From positions 41,973 to 105,972 of the IMG/VR virus record IMGVR_UViG_3300032053_000017: a stretch of DNA of 64,000 nt. One strand, given 5' to 3'. Each line of letters opens with the position of its first letter. The first letter of the stretch is position 1. A model generated the notes under the pieces. The model was not told where the DNA came from. It saw only the letters and a list, made by a program, of their open reading frames with translations, and searched no databases. Shown here in pieces: positions 12,936 through 40,423 of the stretch. This DNA is from a virus. The position numbers and the translations under genes are program-made.

Positions 12936-13607
12936 ATGCCGTCAGATATGCAGAAGGCGGTCAACAAGGCGAAGGACGAGGTCGACGAGGTCGAAGAGAT
13001 TGACTTCGATACTCTGTGGGGGCCAAGCAAGCCCGGTGATGGTGAGATGAGCGACAACATCTTCACTGATGAGACCAAGGACCCCGACAAGAAGTACGCC
13101 AAGGTCTACAACGTCGGCGACATCGACGTGGAAGGCGACGTGCCGGGTGTGATAAAGAAGGGTCTCTCGGTGAACGTGGCCGATGCGATCCATGACCTTC
13201 AGGAGGCGGCCGCGACTCTAGCTGAGATCGGGGACGGGCTGGACAACGTAGGTAAGGCCGTGTCCTGCAAGGCCTGCGGTGGTAAGGTCTCGGAGGGACA
13301 GCGGAACCTCTACCGGAAAACGATGATGCGGCGCGGCTGGAAGCCGGAGGGACACAAGGCCTTCTGGTCGAAGATCTCTTCGGGCATGGACAAGGGTGGA
13401 CCGGGTGGGCACCGGGCGTGCGTCGCGCGTATGGAGGGAAAGACGGATGATCCCCACTCGTACTGCGCATGGGCTGAGAACGAGGCGACTGGGAACTGGC
13501 CGTCAGAGGACCAGACCCAGGTGCAGGCTGTACGAAAGGCCCGCACGCTTGGAAGCCGCCTGGCCAAGCAGGCCCGGGCGCTGAACAGCTACCTCAAGGG
13601 GCTCTAG
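12936..13607 (+). CDS. virion-type protein with 'CV-x-YC' motif (motif D)
   Basis: 223 residues from ATG 12936. Acidic N-terminus; Cys-rich centre (CKACGGKVSEGQ); then a motif of the form R-A-C-V-A-R-M-E-G-K with a DDPHSYCAW continuation near residues 165-185. A related motif (DCVSRN..NPDAYCGSI) opens the protein at 42380. Basic C-terminus. Function unknown; the shared motif suggests both belong to the same structural or injected set. Confidence 0.6.
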   Translation: MPSDMQKAVNKAKDEVDEVEEIDFDTLWGPSKPGDGEMSDNIFTDETKDPDKKYAKVYNVGDIDVEGDVPGVIKKGLSVNVADAIHDLQEAAATLAEIGDGLDNVGKAVSCKACGGKVSEGQRNLYRKTMMRRGWKPEGHKAFWSKISSGMDKGGPGGHRACVARMEGKTDDPHSYCAWAENEATGNWPSEDQTQVQAVRKARTLGSRLAKQARALNSYLKGL

Positions 13608-13636
13608 TTGCCAACTGCGGTCGGTTGTGTTATAAT
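13608..13636 (+). promoter_or_regulatory. sigma70-type promoter of the structured RNA unit
   Basis: TTGCCA at 13608-13613, exactly 17 bases, then a perfect TATAAT at 13631-13636. Unlike the phage's GGTTTC class, this matches the general bacterial consensus, so the host polymerase could use it from the start of infection. Transcription would start near 13643. Confidence 0.75.
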
Positions 13637-13642
13637 GGACAC

Positions 13643-13966
13643 AGACAGGGTATAGTACTACAGAGGAGGACGGGGTGTTCGACGAGTCCATAGAGACGGC
13701 CCAAGGATGGAAGGGCTTTTACCGAAGTTCAGGAATAAGCACGCCTACTGCTAATGTCCGACAGGCGTGGAGCTTCGGCTGGCTCGTTGACCCCCGTCGT
13801 GGGAAAAGCGGTGGCGCAGCGGTCGCGGAAACGACAGGCGGGTTGGCTGGGCGCAATCGGTCCAGGCGCCACCACATTTCAGAACTGAATAGCGATGACG
13901 GTACATAGCGTGCGGTAGAGCCTAGACGGTTTTACTGCGCGCCGTGTCCACCGACACGGCGTTTTT
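13643..13966 (+). ncRNA. candidate structured non-coding RNA, about 325 nt
   Basis: Bounded by a consensus promoter and a perfect terminator. Long complementary segments fold it: CCGAAG 13722-13727 with CTTCGG 13773-13778, enclosing CACGCCT 13740-13746 with AGGCGTG 13763-13769; then GGTGGCGC 13810-13817 with GCGCCACC 13866-13873, enclosing GTCG/CGAC (13822-13835) and CTGG/CCAG (13847-13865). A 77-codon GTG frame (13675-13908) with a GAGGAGG site exists, but its product looks unlike a protein and the pairing explains the sequence better. It lies beside a tRNA array, as phage GOLLD and ROOL RNAs do, but is shorter and I do not recognise its consensus. Confidence 0.55.
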
Positions 13967-13976
13967 GTTGTCTAGG
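13921..13976 (+). terminator. strong intrinsic terminator with outer clamp
   Basis: Perfect 9-bp stem CGCCGTGTC (13940-13948) / GACACGGCG (13953-13961) with a CACC loop followed by TTTTTGTT. An outer inverted repeat CCTAGAC (13921-13927) / GTCTAGG (13970-13976) brackets the whole. It ends the 13643 transcript, so the tRNA genes need readthrough or another promoter. Confidence 0.85.
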
Positions 13977-14134
13977 GTTCAGGTCTCGGTGAAAGTACCG
14001 ATAATACAGACGAGAGTGTATGACACGGGTGCGGGCAGGCATGGTGTAAAGCGAAGCACGCCGAGTCGGGGATCCCAACGACGCGGAGGCTGCTGGGCAT
14101 ACGGGTCCAGGCTGCCGGCTCGATATAACAACAC
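13977..14134 (+). other. non-coding spacer with a hairpin like one in the upstream RNA
   Basis: No convincing gene. Holds CTGG...CCAG (14089-14107 region) followed by GGCTGCC, closely like the CTGG...CCAGGCGCC segment of the structured RNA, and a D-arm-like GGTGTAAAGCGAAGCAC. It could be a decayed tRNA or a partial copy of the RNA's 3' part. Confidence 0.3.
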
Positions 14135-14222
14135 GGACGGTTGGCCGAGCGGACTATGGCGCCGCGGTGCTAACGCGGAGGTCCTTCGGGGCCCGGGAGT
14201 TCGAATCTCTCACCGTCCGCCA
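14135..14222 (+). tRNA. tRNA-Ser(GCT)
   Basis: Acceptor GGACGGT/ACCGTCC, discriminator G and encoded CCA; anticodon loop GTGCTAA gives GCT. Long variable arm as expected for Ser. First tRNA of the array. Confidence 0.9.
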
Positions 14223-14230
14223 ATTTTAAC

Positions 14231-14328
14231 GGGGAGTGGTGTAACAGGGCACACTGGTCTTTGTAGGGCCAGAGGAGATGGGTAAAACGTCTGGGGCAAC
14301 CCAGGGACCGGCCCATCCTTCCCCGCCA
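14231..14328 (+). tRNA. tRNA-like element, Thr(TGT)-type, with enlarged T arm
   Basis: Acceptor GGGGAG pairs with TTCCCC before G-CCA. D arm GTGT/ACAC and anticodon stem TGGTC/GGCCA with loop TTTGTAG (TGT) are normal. The T arm is not: GATGG/CCATC encloses about 31 bases containing a CTGGG-GCAA-CCCAG hairpin, with no TTCRA loop. A canonical Thr(TGT) gene lies at 14661, so this copy is free to be a pseudogene or a specialised RNA. Confidence 0.45.
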
Positions 14329-14351
14329 TATAGGTGAGAGGAACGATCAAG

Positions 14352-14492
14352 ATGACAGGTCTGTGTGGCAGGTGTAATCATCCGGCCATCATGAAGATGA
14401 CGGACAGCAATGCTACGGTCAAGGTCTGCGCGTACCACTGGCACGTGTTGTCTGGGCAAGGCTGGAAGCAGGTTTACCCGAAGGGGCGGTAG
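14352..14492 (+). CDS. small Cys/His protein within the tRNA array
   Basis: 46 residues from ATG 14352: C-x2-C-N-H near the start and C-x2-H-W-H later, a possible single zinc site. Its stop codon lies inside the next tRNA (Asp), overlapping its first 10 bases. Unknown function. Confidence 0.5.
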   Translation: MTGLCGRCNHPAIMKMTDSNATVKVCAYHWHVLSGQGWKQVYPKGR

Positions 14493-14557
14493 CTCAGCGG
14501 CAGAGCGCCCGGCTGTCGACCGGGAGGTCGCGGGTTCGATGCCCGTCCGCCCCGCCA
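14483..14557 (+). tRNA. tRNA-Asp(GTC)
   Basis: Acceptor GGGGCGG/CCGCCCC, anticodon loop CTGTCGA (GTC), T arm CGGGTTCGATGCCCG, encoded CCA. Confidence 0.92.
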
Positions 14558-14560
14558 TAC

Positions 14561-14650
14561 TGGGGAGTGGCCGAGTCTGGATTATGGCGACCGTCTCGAA
14601 AACGGTTGGTCCGAGAGGGCACGGGGGTTCGAATCCCTCCTCCCCAGCCA
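14561..14650 (+). tRNA. tRNA-Ser(CGA)
   Basis: Acceptor TGGGGAG/CTCCCCA, GCCGAG D arm, anticodon loop CTCGAAA (CGA), long variable arm, encoded CCA. Confidence 0.9.
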
Positions 14651-14660
14651 TATTAACAAT

Positions 14661-14737
14661 GCTGGAGTAGCTCAAGTGGGGAGAGCGGCTGTCTTGTAAA
14701 CAGCGGGTTGGGGGTTCGAGGCCCTCCTCCAGCTCCA
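14661..14737 (+). tRNA. tRNA-Thr(TGT)
   Basis: Acceptor GCTGGAG/CTCCAGC, anticodon stem GCTGT/ACAGC with loop CTTGTAA (TGT), encoded CCA. The regular partner of the atypical element at 14231. Confidence 0.9.
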
Positions 14738-14746
14738 TAATAGCGG

Positions 14747-14822
14747 TGCGGGGTAGAGCAATGGTTAGCTCGACGGCCTCATAAGCCGTAGATTGAGGGT
14801 TCGAATCCCTCCCCCGCTACCA
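14747..14822 (+). tRNA. tRNA with CAT anticodon (Met or Ile2)
   Basis: D stem GAGC/GCTC, anticodon stem ACGGC/GCCGT with loop CTCATAA (CAT), encoded CCA. The first acceptor pair is a T-T mismatch, a feature otherwise typical of initiator tRNA, but the anticodon stem lacks the three G-C pairs of initiators. Confidence 0.8.
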
Positions 14823-14835
14823 AATAATAATCAGC

Positions 14836-14912
14836 GCCGAGGTAGCTCAGCATGGTAGAGCGCCTGGTTGAAGGCCAGGGCGTCAGCGGTTCAACTCCGT
14901 TCCTCGGCACCA
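14836..14912 (+). tRNA. tRNA-Phe(GAA)
   Basis: Acceptor GCCGAGG/CCTCGGC, anticodon stem CCTGG/CCAGG with loop TTGAAGG (GAA), encoded CCA. Confidence 0.9.
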
Positions 14913-14914
14913 CA

Positions 14915-14991
14915 CGCGGGGTAGAGCGTTGGTCGCTCGCCAGCTTCATACGCTGGAGGTAGTTGGGTTCGATTCCCTTCCCCCGCTACCA
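14915..14991 (+). tRNA. tRNA with CAT anticodon (second)
   Basis: Same acceptor plan as the tRNA at 14747, again with a mismatched first pair (C-T). Anticodon stem CCAGC/GCTGG, loop TTCATAC (CAT), encoded CCA. One of the two may be the lysidine-type Ile tRNA. Confidence 0.8.
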
Positions 14992-15061
14992 TGGGGTCGG
15001 TAGCTCAGTGGTCAGAGCGCGGTCGCACCGAGGACGCGGGTTCGAATCCCGCCCCTCCCCA
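14992..15061 (+). tRNA. truncated tRNA-like element
   Basis: Perfect D arm (GCTC..GAGC) and T arm (CGGGTTCGAATCCCG), but the region between them is about 5 bases too short: CGGT-CGC-ACCG leaves a 3-base loop, so there is no normal anticodon. Ends CCCCA without CCA. Probably a decayed tRNA. Confidence 0.5.
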
Positions 15062-15074
15062 TTTTAACAAGCAA

Positions 15075-15153
15075 GGGCCCGTAGCTCAGTTGGAATCAGA
15101 GCGCCGGTCTTCGAAACCGGGCGGCGGGGGTTCGAGTCCCTCCGGGCCCGCCA
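15075..15153 (+). tRNA. tRNA-Arg(TCG)
   Basis: Acceptor GGGCCCG/CGGGCCC, anticodon stem CCGGT/ACCGG with loop CTTCGAA (TCG), encoded CCA. Confidence 0.92.
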
Positions 15154-15171
15154 TTAAACATAGGTGAATCT

Positions 15172-15585
15172 GTGCATAGGAAAGGAAACCCGAATCATCC
15201 CGCAATGTGCCAGTGTCCTTGGCACGGTGGATGTCGAAAGCCAGCGACGTTGGCTAAGACGGGCGTTCATTTGCGGCGTGGTAACGGGCATCATCGCATC
15301 GATTGCCTATGTCCGTTTTGTATTCCGAAGTCTGGCGATAAGAGCCCTACGTGGAAAGGCGGACAAGGGAAGTTTCAGTGGGAATGTAATGGATGGAAGG
15401 CCGCACGGCGGGTGGTCTGGGCGCGGGATAAAGTGTGCCGTATATGCGGCGGGCCGCCTCGGAAGCGGCGGTTGGATGTTCATCATATCATCGCTCGACG
15501 CGATGGCGGGACTAACGATCCGAGCAATCTGATCGGGGTTCATCAGGGCCGATGTCACAAGTCGGTCGAGACGTACAAAAACTGA
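15172..15585 (+). CDS. HNH homing endonuclease
   Basis: 137 residues from GTG 15172 behind AGGTGA. N-terminal half has Cys/His pairs (CQCPWH, CLCPFC) like DNA-binding zinc modules. The HNH nuclease follows: 'CRICGG', 'LDVHHIIARRDGG', 'NDPSNLIGV..RCHKS'. It sits between tRNA-Arg and tRNA-Val, ending two bases before the latter. It shares the 'CPWH' opening with the HNH gene at 17067. Confidence 0.85.
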   Translation: MHRKGNPNHPAMCQCPWHGGCRKPATLAKTGVHLRRGNGHHRIDCLCPFCIPKSGDKSPTWKGGQGKFQWECNGWKAARRVVWARDKVCRICGGPPRKRRLDVHHIIARRDGGTNDPSNLIGVHQGRCHKSVETYKN

Positions 15586-15587
15586 AT

Positions 15588-15663
15588 AGGGGCGTAGCTC
15601 AATTGGAAGAGTGCCTGTTTTACAAGCAGGAAGTTGGGGGTTCGATTCCCTCCGCCCTTACCA
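15588..15663 (+). tRNA. tRNA-Val(TAC)
   Basis: Acceptor AGGGGCG/CGCCCTT, anticodon stem CCTGT/GCAGG with loop TTTACAA (TAC), encoded CCA. Confidence 0.9.
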
Positions 15664-15671
15664 GATATCGC

Positions 15672-15738
15672 AGGGGCTGGCAAGTCCTGGCTCTCACCAG
15701 GCACCGGGTGCCTACGTATAAGGCGTCAGCCCCTATCA
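15672..15738 (+). tRNA. D-armless tRNA-like element
   Basis: Acceptor-like AGGGGCT (15672-15678) / AGCCCCT (15728-15734); anticodon-like stem CCTGG/CCAGG with loop CTCTCA; T-arm-like TGCCT/AGGCG with 7-base loop ACGTATA. Only seven bases stand where a D arm should be and the tail reads A-TCA instead of CCA. Could be a decayed tRNA or a tRNA mimic. Confidence 0.4.
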
Positions 15739-15810
15739 TGGGACATTTCGGTGGACATTTTGTCTGTCGAGTAGGTTCGAATCAGATAGGGACACAACAC
15801 GGGACATTAT
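15739..15810 (+). other. spacer with tRNA remnants
   Basis: No gene seen. Contains the 8-mer GGGACATT twice (near 15741 and 15801) with a near match between them, and an isolated T-loop-like GGTTCGAATC, suggesting recombination debris between tRNA genes. Confidence 0.3.
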
Positions 15811-15885
15811 GGGCTGGTAGCTTAATGGGAGAGCGGGTGCCCTGCAAGCATTCAGATGTCGGTTCGAGTCCGACCCGGTCCACCA
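15811..15885 (+). tRNA. tRNA-Ala(TGC)
   Basis: Acceptor GGGCTGG/CCGGTCC keeps the G3-U70 pair that marks alanine tRNAs. Anticodon loop CCTGCAA (TGC), encoded CCA. Confidence 0.92.
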
Positions 15886-15898
15886 CCTTAACAAATGT

Positions 15899-15975
15899 GG
15901 CTCTCTAGCCCAACTGGTAGAGGCATCTGCCTTAGAAGCAGATCAGTCAGAGTTCGAATCTCTGGGGAGCCACCA
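15899..15975 (+). tRNA. tRNA with TAG anticodon (Leu codon CTA), short variable loop
   Basis: Acceptor GGCTCTC/GGGAGCC, anticodon stem TCTGC/GCAGA with loop CTTAGAA (TAG), encoded CCA. The variable loop is only about five bases, whereas bacterial Leu tRNAs have a long variable arm, so its charging identity is uncertain. Confidence 0.8.
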
Positions 15976-15978
15976 TAA

Positions 15979-16054
15979 GCGACGGTAACTCAATTGGTAG
16001 AGTGTCTGCCCTCCAAGCAGGTCGTTGCGGGTTCGAGTCCCGCTCGTCGCTCCA
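15979..16054 (+). tRNA. tRNA-Gly(TCC)
   Basis: Acceptor GCGACGG/TCGTCGC, anticodon loop CCTCCAA (TCC), encoded CCA. Confidence 0.9.
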
Positions 16055-16056
16055 AC

Positions 16057-16131
16057 GCGGGGGTAGCTCAGCGGCAGAGCGCCTGCTTGCCATGCAGGAG
16101 GTCGTGGGTTCGAGCCCCATTCCCCGCTCCA
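16057..16131 (+). tRNA. tRNA-Gly(GCC)
   Basis: Acceptor GCGGGGG/TCCCCGC, anticodon stem CCTGC/GCAGG with loop TTGCCAT (GCC), encoded CCA. Confidence 0.92.
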
Positions 16132-16132
16132 G

Positions 16133-16207
16133 AGGCGGGTAGCTCAGGGGTAGAGCAACGGCCTTATAAGCCGTACGTCGAAGGTCCGATTCCTTCCCCG
16201 CCCACCA
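16133..16207 (+). tRNA. tRNA-Ile(TAT)
   Basis: Anticodon stem ACGGC/GCCGT with loop CTTATAA (TAT); acceptor AGGCGGG/CCCGCCC with the first pair mismatched; encoded CCA. A TAT anticodon for codon ATA is rare in bacteria, which normally use a lysidine-modified CAT tRNA. Confidence 0.85.
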
Positions 16208-16208
16208 T

Positions 16209-16284
16209 GGGCCGGTAGCTCAGAGGATAGAGCGGCAGTTTCCTAAACTGCGCGGCGCGGGTTCGAGTCCCGCTCGGCCTTCCA
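16209..16284 (+). tRNA. tRNA-Arg(CCT)
   Basis: Acceptor GGGCCGG/TCGGCCT, anticodon stem GCAGT/ACTGC with loop TTCCTAA (CCT), encoded CCA. Confidence 0.9.
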
Positions 16285-16285
16285 T

Positions 16286-16361
16286 AGACGGGTAGCTCAA
16301 CAGGCAGAGCAGGAGTCTGATACGCCCCAGGTTGGAGGTTCGAGTCCTCCCCCGTCTACCA
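16286..16361 (+). tRNA. tRNA-Ile(GAT)
   Basis: Acceptor AGACGGG/CCCGTCT, anticodon loop CTGATAC (GAT), one A-C mismatch in the anticodon stem, encoded CCA. Confidence 0.85.
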
Positions 16362-16362
16362 C

Positions 16363-16437
16363 ACCAGGGTGGCGCAACGGTAGCGCGGCTCCCTGTTAAG
16401 GAGACGGTTGCAGGTCCGAATCCTGCCCCTGGTGCCA
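16363..16437 (+). tRNA. tRNA-Asn(GTT)
   Basis: Acceptor ACCAGGG/CCCTGGT, anticodon loop CTGTTAA (GTT), encoded CCA. Confidence 0.9.
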
Positions 16438-16438
16438 T

Positions 16439-16512
16439 GGCCCACTCGTTTAACGGCAGGACATCTCCCCCTCAAGGAGAAGACGTCGGTTCGACCCCGG
16501 CGTGGGCTACCA
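16439..16512 (+). tRNA. tRNA-Glu(CTC)
   Basis: Acceptor GGCCCAC/GTGGGCT, Glu-type D region (TTTAACGGCAGGACA), anticodon stem TCTCC/GGAGA with loop CCCTCAA (CTC; base 33 is C rather than T), encoded CCA. Confidence 0.85.
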
Positions 16513-16568
16513 TTCCTTAATAAATAACGGTCATAACTGTAAGAATAGTCGGCCATAGCTTTACAATC

Positions 16569-16644
16569 GGCGGCGTAGCCCAATTGGCAGAGGTACCGGG
16601 TCCAAACCCCGGGGATCAGAGTTCGAATCTCTGCGTCGCCACCA
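16569..16644 (+). tRNA. tRNA with CAA anticodon by geometry (Leu codon TTG)
   Basis: Acceptor GGCGGCG/CGTCGCC, anticodon stem CCGGG/CCCGG with loop TCCAAAC. Strict geometry gives CAA, but base 33 is then C; a one-base slip would read CCA (Trp). The variable loop is short, as in the TAG tRNA at 15899. A regular Trp tRNA lies at 16730. Confidence 0.75.
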
Positions 16645-16646
16645 AT

Positions 16647-16722
16647 GGGAGTGTAGCTCAACGGCTAGAGCAGCTGCCTTTTAAGCAGAGGGATGGGGGT
16701 TCGAGTCCCTTCGCTCCCACCA
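16647..16722 (+). tRNA. tRNA-Lys(TTT)
   Basis: Acceptor GGGAGTG/CGCTCCC, anticodon loop CTTTTAA (TTT), encoded CCA. Confidence 0.92.
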
Positions 16723-16729
16723 TAATGAT

Positions 16730-16805
16730 ACGGACGTAGCTCAGAGGCCAGAGCGGTTGTCTCCAAAACAACTGGTCGGAGGTTCGACTCCTCTCGTCCG
16801 TGCCA
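16730..16805 (+). tRNA. tRNA-Trp(CCA)
   Basis: Acceptor ACGGACG/CGTCCGT, anticodon stem GTTGT/ACAAC with loop CTCCAAA (CCA), encoded CCA end. Confidence 0.92.
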
Positions 16806-16806
16806 A

Positions 16807-16884
16807 GGGGGCGTAGCTCAGTTTGGTTAGAGCGGCGGACTCTTAATCCGCGCGGCGGGGGTTCGAATCCCTCCGCCCCTACCA
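16807..16884 (+). tRNA. tRNA-Lys(CTT)
   Basis: Acceptor GGGGGCG/CGCCCCT, anticodon stem GCGGA/TCCGC with loop CTCTTAA (CTT), encoded CCA. Confidence 0.92.
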
Positions 16885-16887
16885 TAT

Positions 16888-16963
16888 CAGCGCGGTAGTG
16901 TAAGTGGCAGCACGAGAGGTTGTGGCCCTCTTAGAGTGGGTTCGAATCCCACCCCGCTGACCA
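16888..16963 (+). tRNA. tRNA-His(GTG)
   Basis: Anticodon stem AGAGG/CCTCT with loop TTGTGGC (GTG). Eight-pair acceptor CAGCGCGG/CCCCGCTG with one mismatch, in keeping with the extra pair of His tRNAs. Encoded CCA. Confidence 0.88.
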
Positions 16964-16982
16964 TCATTCAGGTATTCTATAC

Positions 16983-17056
16983 TCGGGGGTAGGCTAGCGG
17001 TAGACCGCCTGACTCTGGATCAGGAAAGAGAGGTTCGAATCCTCTTCCCCGAGCCA
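16983..17056 (+). tRNA. tRNA-Gln(CTG)
   Basis: Acceptor TCGGGGG/TCCCCGA, anticodon stem CCTGA/TCAGG with loop CTCTGGA (CTG), encoded CCA. Preceded by GGTATTCTATA (16970-16980). Confidence 0.9.
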
Positions 17057-17066
17057 AGGAGATGAT

Positions 17067-17438
17067 ATGTGCGATGGTTGCGTATTCCATAACGGGCGCA
17101 GAGACCACAAGCCGGGGTGTCGATGTCCCTGGCATAGTGGGCATTCCGAACGCGCATTGAAGAATAATCCGCGGCATGCCCGTCCGCTCGCGGAGTTACT
17201 TGTGGAGAACGGCCAGGCGGGTAAGGCTCAGCGCATAAAGGCTAGGCTTCTCAAGGAGGGGCTTATCAAGGACCGCTGTGAGATATGTGGACTTGGGCCG
17301 GAGTGGCAGGGTCAGCAACTGGTGCTGCCGTTGGATCATCGCAATGGCAATAGGCGGGACTGGCGATTGGAGAATCTTCGGGTCCTCTGTCCCAACTGTC
17401 ATACGCAGACGGCTACATTTTCTGGGCGTAAACTATGA
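17067..17438 (+). CDS. HNH homing endonuclease
   Basis: 123 residues. N-terminal Cys/His module 'CDGC..CRCPWHSGH'; HNH core 'CEICGLG', 'LPLDHRNGNRRDWRLENLRVLCPNCH', a complete H-N-H set. Inserted between the Gln and Pro tRNA genes. The 'CRCPWH' opening links it to the HNH protein at 15172, so the two share DNA-binding modules. Confidence 0.88.
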   Translation: MCDGCVFHNGRRDHKPGCRCPWHSGHSERALKNNPRHARPLAELLVENGQAGKAQRIKARLLKEGLIKDRCEICGLGPEWQGQQLVLPLDHRNGNRRDWRLENLRVLCPNCHTQTATFSGRKL

Positions 17439-17608
17439 GCTGTACGCCGGGATACAACAAGCGGGAGCGGGCGCTGCTTTTCGCGCTTCGCCATCTGATA
17501 GGTAAGAACCACCCGCTCGACCCTGAAAGGTGCGAGGGATGCATGGAGATTGCCGGGTTCCTCACTATACCAGGGTATGAGTCGGTAAACAAGCAGGATG
17601 TCCATTGA
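17435..17608 (+). CDS. small hypothetical protein
   Basis: 57 residues from ATG 17435 overlapping the HNH stop (ATGA). Contains C-x2-C (CEGC) and a helical start (KRERALLFALRHLIG). Its stop overlaps the next ATG. Unknown. Confidence 0.55.
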   Translation: MSCTPGYNKRERALLFALRHLIGKNHPLDPERCEGCMEIAGFLTIPGYESVNKQDVH

Positions 17609-17937
17609 TGGTGCAGGTAGTACACTGCAAGCGTGAACGATACGATGTCTATATCGGTCGGCCGTCAAAGTGGGGCAACCCGTTTGTGATCGGACCAGAT
17701 GGCGACCGCGGTGAGGTCATAGCGAAGTACCGCGCATATCTGCTGGCCAGTCCGGGGCTTATGGCCGCCCTGCCGGAGCTGCGGGGAAAGGTGCTGGGGT
17801 GCTGGTGCAAGCCAGCCGCATGCCACGGGGACGTACTGGCGGAGCTGGTGGATTCTGAGCTCTGGACATTTGGCCAGCTTGATGAGCTTGATCGCATCAT
17901 CGCGGAGGGCGAAGGTCGCGATGAAGGCGTGCTGTAG
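17608..17937 (+). CDS. DUF4326 family protein
   Basis: 109 residues from ATG 17608. 'DVYIGRPSKWGNPF' and 'LRGKVLGCWCKPAACHGDVLAEL' are the family hallmarks; the C-W-C..CHGD segment looks like a metal or nucleotide site. DUF4326 proteins are widespread in phages and of unknown activity. It ends just before tRNA-Pro. Confidence 0.85.
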   Translation: MVQVVHCKRERYDVYIGRPSKWGNPFVIGPDGDRGEVIAKYRAYLLASPGLMAALPELRGKVLGCWCKPAACHGDVLAELVDSELWTFGQLDELDRIIAEGEGRDEGVL

Positions 17938-17938
17938 T

Positions 17939-18016
17939 CGGGGTGTAGCTCAGTTAGGTCAGAGCACGCGGCCTGGGACCGCGGGGTCGGGAGTTCGAAT
18001 CTCTCCGCCCCGACCA
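17939..18016 (+). tRNA. tRNA-Pro(TGG)
   Basis: Acceptor CGGGGTG/CGCCCCG, anticodon stem CGCGG/CCGCG with loop CCTGGGA (TGG), encoded CCA. Confidence 0.88.
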
Positions 18017-18034
18017 TAACAAGGGTATTCTATA

Positions 18035-18131
18035 TTGGAGGGGAATTGCTCTATTTGAGGAGGGCTAGCCAGTGAGGCGGGACTGCTCATTCGCCGGTGA
18101 GACACCCGGTCTAGAGGTTCCGCCCCTCCAA
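18035..18131 (+). tRNA. tRNA-like element with 9-bp terminal stem
   Basis: TTGGAGGGG (18035-18043) pairs perfectly with CCCCTCCAA (18123-18131). The interior can form AGTGAG/CTCATT and CCGG/CCGG hairpins but no normal anticodon or TTCRA loop, and no CCA follows. Lies between Pro and Tyr tRNAs and is preceded by GGTATTCTATA. A degenerate tRNA, an unusual long-acceptor tRNA or another small RNA. Confidence 0.4.
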
Positions 18132-18139
18132 ATGATAAT

Positions 18140-18231
18140 GGGCCGGTGGCCGAGTCTGGCTGAAGGCGGCGGATTGTAGACCCGCTCTTCCTAACGGGGG
18201 CACGGAGGTTCGAATCCTTCCCGGCCCACCA
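18140..18231 (+). tRNA. tRNA-Tyr(GTA)
   Basis: Acceptor GGGCCGG/CCGGCCC, GCCGAG D arm, anticodon loop TTGTAGA (GTA), long variable arm, encoded CCA. Last tRNA of the array. Confidence 0.9.
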
Positions 18232-20646: not shown

Positions 20647-21678
20647 ATGGGTAAGTGGTTTAAGGTAGCTATAGTAGGACTCATAGCGGCAGCGGCTGTC
20701 GTGCTGGCCTCCGCGGTGTACACGCCGGCATCGGCAGTTGGTGTTGGTGGTGGCGGCGGCGGCGGCGGCGGCAAGACGCACACGCCGACAGCGACGGCGA
20801 CGGCAACATCTACGCCTCAGACGTACCAAGTCATTGAGGCGAAGGCGCTGACCGAGCACGAGTGCGACTGCCACGAGTGGCACTTCGTCATCAACAAGGT
20901 CAAGGAAGGCCCGCAGGGCGACAGGTACAAGTATGTTCCGTCGCACATCCACGTAACTTGGGCCAATGGCGATACTGAGCGTGTGGACGTGGACGAGAAG
21001 TATGCGGACGGCAATTGGAGGGTTGGGCACTACACCGTGGACCATAACCTCAACTTCACGGTTACCAGCGCTACGGCCGAGATATATGGGGAGTGGGACG
21101 GGCAGTTCAACCTCAGTCATGGTCCGTGTCCTCCGTCAACTAAGACGCCGACTCCGACGCTTACACCAACGGCGACTGCGACGACGGTTCCGACGGATAC
21201 TCCGACGGCGACTCCGACGGACACGGCTACGCCTGAGCCGACGGCAACGGATACCCCGGAACCTACGGCAACAGAGGTCCCGCCGACGGATACCGCGGTG
21301 CCCACGGCGACGCTGACCCCGACCCCGGAGGATACGGATACTCCTGTCCCGACGGACACGGCTACCCCGCTTCCGACGGATACGGCGACGGCGACCCCTT
21401 GGCATCGTGAGCACACTCCAACGCCTGAGGCGACCTCTACAGTTGCTCCGGAGCCTACAGCTACAGCGACGATACCTCAGGCGCGTCTTGAGCCTCTGGT
21501 CCCGCCGGCGCCGCCTGCGGTTGTACTACCTAGCGCTGGAGAAGGTTTGGAGAAGACTGACGTTCCGCTGGGGCTCGCGATTGGCGTGGCGGTATGTCTC
21601 GTCATCATGTCCGGGTTCATCACCGTTATCGTGGCGTGTTGCGTTCGTGGCGCAAGGTGGTTGAGGAGGGACAGTTGA
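20647..21678 (+). CDS. secreted, membrane-anchored protein with Thr/Pro stalk
   Basis: 343 residues. Signal peptide (1-29, AAAAVVLASAV), a run of nine Gly, a small folded domain (about 58-160) with C-x-C-x-E-W-H, then some 115 residues of TPTATPT-type repeats, and a C-terminal membrane helix (about 308-333) with a basic tail. The layout is that of a cell-surface display protein, with the stalk spanning the envelope. The stalk style is common in Chloroflexota proteins. It may alter the infected cell's surface, for example to block superinfection; the function is inference. Confidence 0.75.
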   Translation: MGKWFKVAIVGLIAAAAVVLASAVYTPASAVGVGGGGGGGGGKTHTPTATATATSTPQTYQVIEAKALTEHECDCHEWHFVINKVKEGPQGDRYKYVPSHIHVTWANGDTERVDVDEKYADGNWRVGHYTVDHNLNFTVTSATAEIYGEWDGQFNLSHGPCPPSTKTPTPTLTPTATATTVPTDTPTATPTDTATPEPTATDTPEPTATEVPPTDTAVPTATLTPTPEDTDTPVPTDTATPLPTDTATATPWHREHTPTPEATSTVAPEPTATATIPQARLEPLVPPAPPAVVLPSAGEGLEKTDVPLGLAIGVAVCLVIMSGFITVIVACCVRGARWLRRDS

Positions 21679-22823
21679 GGATCATAGACAGCTCCCCAGA
21701 GGGTGGCCTGCAGATCTTCGACTGGGCAGACAACCTCGAGCAGGGGGCGTTTCACCAGGCGCGTGACATCGCGGCGTTGCCGTTCGCGTTCCATCATGTG
21801 GCTGTCATGGCTGACGGGCACCAGGGCTTTGGGATGCCGATCGGCGGGGTGCTCGCGACGCGCGGCGTCGTGGTCCCGAACGCGGTTGGCGTTGATATCG
21901 GCTGCGGGATGATAGCTGTCAGGACCGACAGGTCGGTCTTCGGCTTGACGCCGGATACGCTCAAGAGGATCCTTGCAGACGTGCGTAGGACGGTTCCGCT
22001 TGGTTTGGGTAAGCGCCATGACCAGTCGCAGGACTGGGAGGGGTTTGGTCGTGCACCGAATCTGCCCGTCATCCAGCGGCAGCTGGAGGCGGCTAGGAAG
22101 CAGCTCGGTACACTGGGCGCGGGCAACCACTTCATCGAGATACAGGCTGATGATGCTGGCTCCGTATGGGTGATGGTTCACTCCGGCAGTCGTAACTTCG
22201 GGCTGCAGGTTGCCGGCGAGTATCACAGGACAGCTAAGGCCCTGTGCGAACGGTGGCACTCCAAGCTCCCGACGCCAGATCTTGCATTCCTGCCCATCGA
22301 GACACAGGACGGCAAGGACTATATGGAGGCCATGAACTACTGCCTCGAGTTCGCGAAGGCGAGCAGGGCGTTGATGATGACTCGGGTTGTCGAGGCGCTT
22401 GGGGCAACGGTCTTTAAGTCACTTGACATACACCACAACTATGCTGCATGGGAGCGTCACTTCGGTCAGGATGTGCTCGTCCACCGGAAGGGCGCGACAT
22501 ACGCCGGCTTGGGAGTGGAGGGGATCATACCTGGTTCGATGGGTACGGCGAGCTACATCGTCAACGGGCTTGGCAACCGTCTGAGCTTCAACTCGTGCTC
22601 GCACGGGGCGGGCAGATGTATGAGTCGCACGGCTGCACGGCATGACCTCGACCTGGTGGAGGAGCAGGCGAAGATGGGCAGTGTGGTCGGAGGGCCACGG
22701 ACTGTTGCGGACCTCGATGAGGCGCCAGGCGCATACAAGGACATCGACGCGGTCATGGCCGCACAGGTCGACCTCGTGGAGGTTGTTACAAAGCTGCACC
22801 CATTGGCCAGCTTGAAGGGATAG
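21675..22823 (+). CDS. rtcB: RtcB-type RNA ligase
   Basis: 382 residues from TTG 21675 behind GAGGAGGG. Metal-binding 'GVDIGCGM' (near 73-80), 'GNHFIE' (near 150), 'HSGSRN' (near 170), 'HHNYA', and 'SHGAGR' (near 308) with the His that accepts GMP, all intact. RtcB joins 2',3'-cyclic phosphate and 5'-OH RNA ends. Beside a phage tRNA array the natural role is mending tRNAs cut by host anticodon nucleases. Length suits the short RtcB subgroup. Confidence 0.93.
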   Translation: MRIIDSSPEGGLQIFDWADNLEQGAFHQARDIAALPFAFHHVAVMADGHQGFGMPIGGVLATRGVVVPNAVGVDIGCGMIAVRTDRSVFGLTPDTLKRILADVRRTVPLGLGKRHDQSQDWEGFGRAPNLPVIQRQLEAARKQLGTLGAGNHFIEIQADDAGSVWVMVHSGSRNFGLQVAGEYHRTAKALCERWHSKLPTPDLAFLPIETQDGKDYMEAMNYCLEFAKASRALMMTRVVEALGATVFKSLDIHHNYAAWERHFGQDVLVHRKGATYAGLGVEGIIPGSMGTASYIVNGLGNRLSFNSCSHGAGRCMSRTAARHDLDLVEEQAKMGSVVGGPRTVADLDEAPGAYKDIDAVMAAQVDLVEVVTKLHPLASLKG

Positions 22824-38093: not shown

Positions 38094-40423
38094 GGGTCGA
38101 GGACGACGAGGGTCTGCAGGAGTGGGGGCGCTACCTCACCGGGCAGCGCGTCGAGAAACACCTCCCGGGTGAACACGACCAGGACACCCACGGCACCCGG
38201 CACGAGCGCAGCGCTGACCAGCAGAAGACGCTCAAGATGTTGCAGAGCTACATGAGCGCCATGGTGGAGATGCGCGGGGCGAAGAAGCCCAAGGGCTGGC
38301 GCTTCAACTCTGTTGAGGAGCTGCTGCTCAAGCACGGTCAGACGTTCTCCAACGACCCCTACACATCAGATGAGGAGGAGGTGATCCTCAGGTTGGCGGC
38401 CACACTTGGCCCATGCCACGAGAAGGAGTGCTACCTCACGGCCCTGCGCGGCGCGCTGGAAGCCGATATGACAAGCATGGAGATCCACTACGCCGAGGGT
38501 CTTGCTATGGCCAAGGGTCTGCCGCTCCCTATCAACCACGCGTTCTTGGTCCTCAACAACAAGCCAGTCGACCTAACGTGGCGACGCGACTACAGTGTTG
38601 GGCACGGTTACAGGTCAGCCAAGCGGCTGCTCGAGCGAGCGAAGGAGAACCTCGAGGACGACGTCTACATCGGCATCAAGATCCCGACTGACCATATCAG
38701 ACGGCAGGCGTTCGATACGGGCCAGGCCGCGCCGATCCTCGACGATTGGGAGCGTGGCTACCCGCTGCTGCAGCGCGGGATCCCCAAGAGCTGGGAGAAA
38801 CTGCAGAAGGCTCTGTCGCCGTTTACGCATGAGCACGACGAATACCCGCGGCACTCGATCAACAAGACTCATTATGACACCAATGATAATATCACCGACG
38901 TTGATAAGCACCTACCGGGCAAACATGACCAGGCCACCCACGCTGGCGTCGAGAGCGTCAAGCATGATCTAGACGAAGCCACGGACAAGGACCTCGAGGG
39001 GTGGCTCAAGTTTATTGGGCGCAGGGGAAGACAGAACGATAAGGACGCCAGCATCGACGAGGCGGTCTCGATAAGTCTGATGCAGAGCGCGCTCCGCGAG
39101 CACCCCGACAGGACCTGGGTACTGCGCGACCCAAGCGGTAAGGCTCAGGCATTCGCGGCGCTGTCGAAGCCTGATCCTAAGGGCTGGAGTGAGCTACAGT
39201 ACGGAGCAGCGCCCTGGCACACCGTAGCTGAGGGTGTACACGGCTACGGCCTGCAGGTGGTGCGAGAGGCAGTTCAGGCCGCCATAGACGGCAAGCGCTG
39301 CAAGGCTATCTGGGCTGAGCCTGTGAACGACCGCTCGTGGCATATCCTCGAGCAGGCGGGGTTCGAGGGTGGGCGTGAGGGGGAGCCGCCTGGTGGCTAC
39401 ATGGTGAGCATGAACCTGCGGCCGTTCCTGAGCAAGGCTGAGCCGATCAAGCACTTCACCCACGAGCACGAGGGCTGGCCGCGCCACCCTATCAATGTGA
39501 AGAACCATGCCAAGTACTTCACAAAGCATCCTGAGCTGCACGGGCCCTTCCCAAAGGTGCCCAAGCCGTCTCCGCCACGCGCGTCGTCGCCGTCGCTGTA
39601 CGCGCTCGCGGGCAAGACCCCACCAAGGGAGGAGATCGACGCCGAGCAGAGTTTTTCTGAGGCTGGCCTGCGCGGTGGCATCTGGCTGGAGCGCACGACC
39701 GTCGTCGAGTGCAAGCCTGGGATGCTTCCCGAGGTTGAGGGTCTGTCGGATGTACGGCTCATCCACAAGACCTTCACGGGGGAGTCTGTGACCGAGTACA
39801 CGGTGTACAAGTTGTTCGAGCTGCTCAGACCTGGCTTCTGTCCGACGGTCATGATAGACGAGAAGGGCGAGGGCCACACGATGCGGTGGGTGGACGACGC
39901 TGGCTTTGGCGGGAATGCTATAGTCCTGGAAAAGGATACCACGACCCGAAGCCACGGCTTTAGCATAGAACAGGCGGAGGACGCGGGCTTTATGCAGGTG
40001 GTCGACTGGCTGGCCGGAAACCCGGACAGACACACTGGCAATGTCGTCCTCGACGGCGACCGTCTCTGGCCGATCGACAATGGGCTCTGTAACCTCAGCT
40101 ACGGCCAATATCGTTTTAGTGTAAACTGGACCTGGACGTCGCGGCTGGAGCCTGGTGACGCGAAGTCGCGGCGGGCATTCAGAGACTCAGCTCTGCGTAC
40201 ACTCAACCAGGTAGCGGAGAACGCGGACAAGATCATTGAAGTTATAGCGACCAAGGGTGGGCTGCCGCAGCGTCAGGAGCCTGGTGCCTTTGCGCATGGG
40301 CCGGCCGTCAGGCCTAAGCCTAAGTTTGTTGTCTCCGCGGTCAAGGCTGCACGCAAGGAGCTGAGGGCGTGGTACAAGCAGGCGGAGGACAACGCTAACG
40401 AGAGGCGCAGGAGGATGGCATAA
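38081..40423 (+). CDS. multidomain effector: transglutaminase/papain-like, GNAT-like and HipA/PI-kinase-like domains
   Basis: 780 residues; starts 13 bases inside the end of the giant gene. Motif A (26-38); a C-H-D type domain (C117 in 'ECYLTALRGALE', H153 in 'NHAFLV', D164 in 'VDLTW') like papain/transglutaminase folds; motif C (about 247-265); motif A (276-288); a GNAT-like acetyltransferase (about 325-450, 'RSWHILEQAGF'); motif C (about 459-480); then a kinase-like domain (about 515-720) with 'VVDWLAGNPDRHTGN' and 'IDNG', the catalytic and metal-binding loops of HipA/PI3-4-kinase-type enzymes. Each module follows a tag motif. Targets are unknown. Confidence 0.75.
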   Translation: MGKLRVEDDEGLQEWGRYLTGQRVEKHLPGEHDQDTHGTRHERSADQQKTLKMLQSYMSAMVEMRGAKKPKGWRFNSVEELLLKHGQTFSNDPYTSDEEEVILRLAATLGPCHEKECYLTALRGALEADMTSMEIHYAEGLAMAKGLPLPINHAFLVLNNKPVDLTWRRDYSVGHGYRSAKRLLERAKENLEDDVYIGIKIPTDHIRRQAFDTGQAAPILDDWERGYPLLQRGIPKSWEKLQKALSPFTHEHDEYPRHSINKTHYDTNDNITDVDKHLPGKHDQATHAGVESVKHDLDEATDKDLEGWLKFIGRRGRQNDKDASIDEAVSISLMQSALREHPDRTWVLRDPSGKAQAFAALSKPDPKGWSELQYGAAPWHTVAEGVHGYGLQVVREAVQAAIDGKRCKAIWAEPVNDRSWHILEQAGFEGGREGEPPGGYMVSMNLRPFLSKAEPIKHFTHEHEGWPRHPINVKNHAKYFTKHPELHGPFPKVPKPSPPRASSPSLYALAGKTPPREEIDAEQSFSEAGLRGGIWLERTTVVECKPGMLPEVEGLSDVRLIHKTFTGESVTEYTVYKLFELLRPGFCPTVMIDEKGEGHTMRWVDDAGFGGNAIVLEKDTTTRSHGFSIEQAEDAGFMQVVDWLAGNPDRHTGNVVLDGDRLWPIDNGLCNLSYGQYRFSVNWTWTSRLEPGDAKSRRAFRDSALRTLNQVAENADKIIEVIATKGGLPQRQEPGAFAHGPAVRPKPKFVVSAVKAARKELRAWYKQAEDNANERRRRMA
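38156..38193 (+). repeat. motif A copy 5
   Basis: Encodes KHLPGEHDQDTHG near the N-terminus of the second effector protein. Confidence 0.85.
38822..38878 (+). repeat. motif C copy 2
   Basis: Encodes FTHEHDEYPRHSIN then T-H-Y-D, after the transglutaminase/papain-like domain. Confidence 0.8.
38906..38946 (+). repeat. motif A copy 6
   Basis: Encodes KHLPGKHDQATHA, before the GNAT-like domain. Confidence 0.85.
39455..39520 (+). repeat. motif C copy 3
   Basis: Encodes FTHEHEGWPRHPIN then N-H-A-K-Y-F, before the kinase-like domain. Confidence 0.85.

Follow-up and report, generated by a model that had tools for sequence, protein, structure and literature searches.

A probable structured noncoding RNA gene at the head of a phage tRNA array

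What is encoded in the short stretch that separates a conserved phage gene from the first gene of a tRNA array? The question is raised by the record of an uncultivated phage of 105,972 bases, of which bases 41973-105972 were analyzed. This 64-kb stretch is referred to as the window, and positions are those of the window unless a relative is named. Portal and major capsid protein are encoded within the window, and about 26 tRNA genes are located at 14135-18231 (ARAGORN, Rfam). The locus considered here lies in the interval from the end of a conserved gene (13607) to the first tRNA gene (14135). Relatives of the phage were retrieved from IMG/VR by searches with the capsid and with the upstream gene, and a search by capsid for related prophages in genome contigs found none. 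The upstream gene, which is 57% identical to its counterpart in the relative G001, is also conserved in the relative G009, and this conservation anchors the synteny of the locus with both. The boundaries of the locus are as follows.

12939..13607, plus strand: upstream gene, conserved in G001 and G009, start not fixed
13608..13636, plus strand: sigma-70-type promoter, TTGCCA-17-TATAAT, extended -10 (TG)
13643..13968, plus strand: predicted transcript of about 326 nt, from the positions of promoter and terminator
13939..13967, plus strand: intrinsic terminator, with its stem-loop at 13939-13962

Transcription signals and fold of the predicted RNA

The stronger evidence for this locus comes from its transcription signals and not from its fold. 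The promoter consists of the -35 hexamer TTGCCA (13608-13613), a 17-nt spacer, and the -10 hexamer TATAAT (13631-13636) with a TG one base ahead of it, and matches the consensus at 11 of 12 positions. TATAAT occurs 10 times on the two strands of the window, and only the copy at 13631-13636 is accompanied by a -35 hexamer matching at least five of six positions; 30 dinucleotide shuffles of the 64 kb contained no such site. The perfect -10, good -35, and 17-base spacing noted in a preliminary description of this DNA are therefore confirmed and are the only combination of that quality in the window. The predicted transcript start at 13643 was placed 7 nt past the -10. The terminator, which had been noted as well, holds up equally: its stem-loop has 10 pairs and a 4-nt loop and is followed by TTTT, and no other stem in the window combines 8 or more perfect pairs with a TTTT directly after them.

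The whole transcript (13643-13968) folds at -135.9 kcal/mol with a z of -4.16, or about -3.4 with separate shuffles. With the terminator left out, z amounts to -1.7 for 13643-13932 and to -3.0 for 13669-13899; part of the fold excess comes from the terminator, and the remainder is modest. Three structured elements precede the terminator.

13669..13798, plus strand: domain 1, a closing helix around two hairpins; z about -3.7 (13668-13800)
13810..13873, plus strand: domain 2, helix GGUGGCGC/GCGCCACC; z -1.5
13910..13940, plus strand: 13-bp hairpin, GUGCGGUAGAGCC/GGUUUUACUGCGC; z -3.7 for 13907-13938

The closing helix of domain 1 is composed of 7+7+3 bp (GACGGGG/CCCCGUC, CGACGAG/CUCGUUG, and CCA/UGG), and the hairpins inside it, at 13698-13717 and 13722-13778, have 5 bp and 9+7 bp. 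Among 913 background windows of equal length, only 0.3% reach the z of domain 1, and the excess disappears when the 133-nt window is shifted by 25 nt. In domain 2, an 8-bp helix encloses hairpins of 4 bp and 6 bp. The hairpin ahead of the terminator, counting 11-13 bp, adjoins the 5' arm of the terminator and can extend into that arm; it may be what had been described as an “outer clamp” of the terminator. This 3' third, hairpin and terminator together, folds about as well as domain 1. The RNA structure is real, yet it is not extraordinary, and the at least five nested inverted repeats reported earlier do exist, but most of them lie side by side.

Noncoding RNA or small messenger

The region 13608-13968 seems to be an independently transcribed and terminated gene, about 326 nt long, for a structured noncoding RNA; it heads the tRNA array. 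We assign this reading a probability of roughly 0.55, the figure covering solely the step to a noncoding structured RNA gene. In its favor are the strong promoter and terminator, a fold moderately above chance, the lack of a coding signature, and the finding that G001 and G009 likewise have at this place a structured noncoding RNA driven by a promoter. Against it count the modest fold excess outside the terminator, the lack of detectable homology to the RNA of these two relatives, and an open frame that is discussed below. As to the self-contained structured RNA gene that had been postulated beside the tRNA array, the self-contained transcription unit with its unique promoter and terminator stands, and that it is noncoding and structured is probable.

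A less likely explanation would be a small mRNA comprising a 32-nt leader, AGGAGG, a GTG start, the coding region for a 77-aa phage protein, and the terminator, the fold being incidental. Two features are concerned.

13664..13669, plus strand: AGGAGG, Shine-Dalgarno-like, 5 nt ahead of GTG
13675..13908, plus strand: GTG open frame of 77 codons, probably not a gene

This frame covers most of the transcript. Frames of at least 77 codons are present in 14% of shuffles, and a Shine-Dalgarno sequence plus such a frame in just 1.1%, which keeps the small messenger alive and counts against a noncoding RNA. However, the codon score of the frame (-0.19) lies below that of 99% of real windows (1st percentile of real 76-codon windows, -0.04; shuffle median, -0.29), and its GC content by codon position is flat (0.58/0.61/0.59), i.e., without periodicity. 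The codon test is not absolute, because a genuine HNH gene of the tRNA array scores no better (-0.29) and has an equally flat GC distribution. Neither tblastn, Pfam, and PHROGs nor a back-translated scan of IMG/VR revealed relatives of the 77-codon frame. Homologues conserving this frame, the outcome named beforehand as speaking against an RNA gene, were looked for, and neither an ORF homologue nor a shared frame at the syntenic locus of G001 and G009 was encountered. An AlphaFold model of the 77-aa product reached a low pLDDT of 50.5 and, being computed from a single sequence, is uninformative. Furthermore, domain 1, whose fold ranks in the top 0.3%, is situated within the frame. Among the marks of a gene for a small protein, the Shine-Dalgarno-like AGGAGG is present, and codon usage and a conserved frame are absent.

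If the locus is a noncoding RNA gene, host RNA polymerase would need no phage factor to transcribe it, and its product, a stable RNA, would act in trans, neither as a messenger nor by switching the tRNA array. This RNA would most likely bind to the translation machinery or to a protein of the host, as the phage devotes this region to parts for translation, although the partner is a guess.

The same locus in related phages

In G001 (99,994 bases) and G009 (55,514 bases), the upstream gene is followed by TATAAT and then by an RNA.

G001, L020:3500-3679: RNA of about 180 nt
G009, L031:5711-5890: RNA of about 180 nt

The two RNAs align with a mean column identity of 94% and, judged by this alignment, are homologous to each other. 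In a hand-drawn structure 98.9% of the chosen helix cells are paired, and the helices show a double change (U-A to G-C) once and G-U changes twice; covariation, with two sequences, is no better than in shuffles. Owing to stops and single-base indels, the two share no frame. The fold of this RNA has a z of -1.56, and there is no obvious terminator, so that in these two phages the RNA may serve as a leader to the gene that comes next. In G001, a transglycosylase-like gene directly follows the RNA, and a similar frame occupies this position in G009. The likely window counterpart of this gene, judged by eye, is encoded far off on the other strand, which speaks against an obligate pairing of RNA and transglycosylase-like gene.

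The RNAs of G001 and G009 resemble the window RNA in their locus, in the upstream gene, in a weakly similar promoter neighborhood (10/500 and 8/500 shuffles as good, respectively), in being structured, and in having no shared ORF. They differ in that they comprise about 180 nt with no terminator seen, whereas the window RNA comprises about 326 nt and has one. The RNA bodies of the window and of G001 and G009 are not alignable (294/300 and 237/300 shuffles as good), and covariance models gave no cross-match, either for the G001/G009 RNA against the window or for the window domains against the relatives. The motif AGACGGTYTT, which the window RNA and those of the relatives have in common close to their 3' ends, was discarded, as such a 7-mer match is expected by chance and the alignment of the whole RNAs is no better than that of shuffles.

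The relatives also bear on another explanation, which we consider improbable, namely that the RNA is an attenuator or antitermination leader, riboswitch-like or similar to put of HK022, that would decide whether polymerase reads through the terminator (13939-13968) and on into the tRNA genes (from 14135). The order of promoter, structured leader, terminator, and tRNA array is as such a leader would have it, and the 13-bp hairpin can extend into the 5' arm of the terminator before the 3' arm is made. Likewise, the tRNAs of G013 are preceded by a promoter and a small hairpin resembling a terminator, and in G006 (L024:3240-3415) a TTGACG/TACACT promoter and a structured leader of about 150 nt (z -2.6) run into the first tRNA. 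The put RNA of HK022 has about 70 nt and two stem-loops and promotes read-through (PMC9378689). Like put RNA, the window RNA is predicted to be structured, to be transcribed by host polymerase from a promoter of the phage, and to precede a terminator, but it differs in its length of about 326 nt. However, the attenuator reading finds no clear support, since the competing hairpin does not exceed chance, 9% of shuffled leaders matching it; the pairing with the terminator arm is equalled by 28%. In addition, no Rfam cis-regulatory model, whether for T-box or for another known riboswitch, matches the RNA, a GATAAT at 14000 may serve the tRNA array, and in G001 several small ORFs separate the RNA from the array. 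In G003, a phosphatase gene runs straight to the tRNAs.

That the promoter-terminator pair encloses a functionless relic or chance structure would agree with the modest fold excess outside the terminator and with the lack of a homologue in any collection searched, but is very improbable given that promoter and terminator are each unique in 64 kb, that phage genomes are compact, and that a promoter-driven RNA is found at the same place in two relatives.

An orphan RNA and the RNAs of tRNA islands

Searches with the region or with its predicted structure yielded no homologue of the window RNA. Rfam, at the gathering threshold and at E up to 10, gave nothing beyond tRNA and chance matches, and blastn against phage and plasmid records gave just a tRNA-Ser or chance similarity. 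The covariance search that had been proposed earlier, in which 14 related IMG/VR records were scanned with a model of each window domain, gave no match, and sequence comparison with related IMG/VR records brought up no homologue either. An exact 18-mer scan of GTDB genomes produced 10 matches, by estimate about the number expected by chance, and none of them was confirmed by the model. A similarity in G004 at 76572 falls inside an ORF and was dismissed as chance. The longest antisense match to other phage genes comprises 13 nt, the same as in shuffles. The “new compact class” announced in the preliminary description therefore finds no backing in these collections; to speak of a class is premature, because a class needs homologues and the collections searched gave none.

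Phages with tRNA arrays can carry a tmRNA, which combines a tRNA-like domain with a tag reading frame and is of similar length to the window RNA, and a tmRNA was considered and rejected, as neither ARAGORN nor Rfam recognized one here. Based on sequence and model comparisons, the window RNA appears to be an orphan outside GOLLD, ROOL, tmRNA, T-box, and any Rfam family, since even the RNA of G001 and G009 cannot be aligned to it. GOLLD and ROOL are noncoding structured RNAs of phages and prophages that often occur by tRNA islands, many members of GOLLD exceeding 800 nt (PMC12286853). An association of RNAs with tRNA islands is thus already known, and it is likewise known that such islands attract large RNAs with no assigned function. 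Like GOLLD, the window RNA would be a phage noncoding RNA by tRNA genes, and like ROOL, a structured phage RNA near a tRNA island. However, it has about 326 nt and matches neither the GOLLD covariance model (up to E 10) nor that of ROOL; it is an orphan of the GOLLD/ROOL kind and not a member of either.

A possible, though doubtful, extension of the noncoding reading is that this group of phages reserves the front of its tRNA array for a compact structured noncoding RNA. Gene and promoter would be kept, and the RNA body would have been replaced between relatives or have diverged beyond recognition, with 18024-18131 as a second such element and the whole as a compact counterpart of the association of GOLLD and ROOL with tRNA islands. 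If a compact, independently transcribed RNA indeed changes its body as its promoter stays, tRNA islands in general would be places where new phage RNAs arise, and probing, folding, and testing would be far easier with an example of 326 nt than with one of 800 nt. If the locus encodes a small mRNA instead, it would be ordinary.

The element at 18024-18131 is structured, is closed by TTGGAGGGG/CCCCTCCAA, and lies between tRNA-Pro and tRNA-Tyr. At the same spot G001 has TATAAT and a structured RNA (L020:7151-7296), and the tRNA-Pro/tRNA-Tyr spacers of the window and of G001 are alignable (1/500 shuffles as good). Within G001, the RNAs at L020:3489-3690 and L020:7151-7296 are weakly alike (28/500 shuffles as good) and have the elements TATAATA..GATG and GGGCGAG(G)GCGAAG in common, a hint that these two promoter-driven RNAs might be paralogues, for which a covariance model gave no confirmation.

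Within the tRNA array, an element at 14229-14329 that is called neither by ARAGORN nor by Rfam is tRNA-like: it has an acceptor-like stem CGGGGAG/CTTCCCCG and CCA, a Gln-like anticodon loop CTTTGTA, a GATGGG/CCCATC hairpin in place of the T-arm, and a z of -3.0. The tRNA at 14994-15060 is recognized by Rfam and not by ARAGORN. A minus-strand tRNA-Asp call by ARAGORN at 40021-40108 lies within a long plus-strand ORF, has no Rfam support, and is probably false. Two HNH endonuclease-like genes are located inside the array (15172-15585 and 17067-17438), and this phage with its large tRNA array also possesses a gene for an RtcB RNA ligase (21594-22823; Pfam E 8e-108), whose role is possibly tRNA repair.
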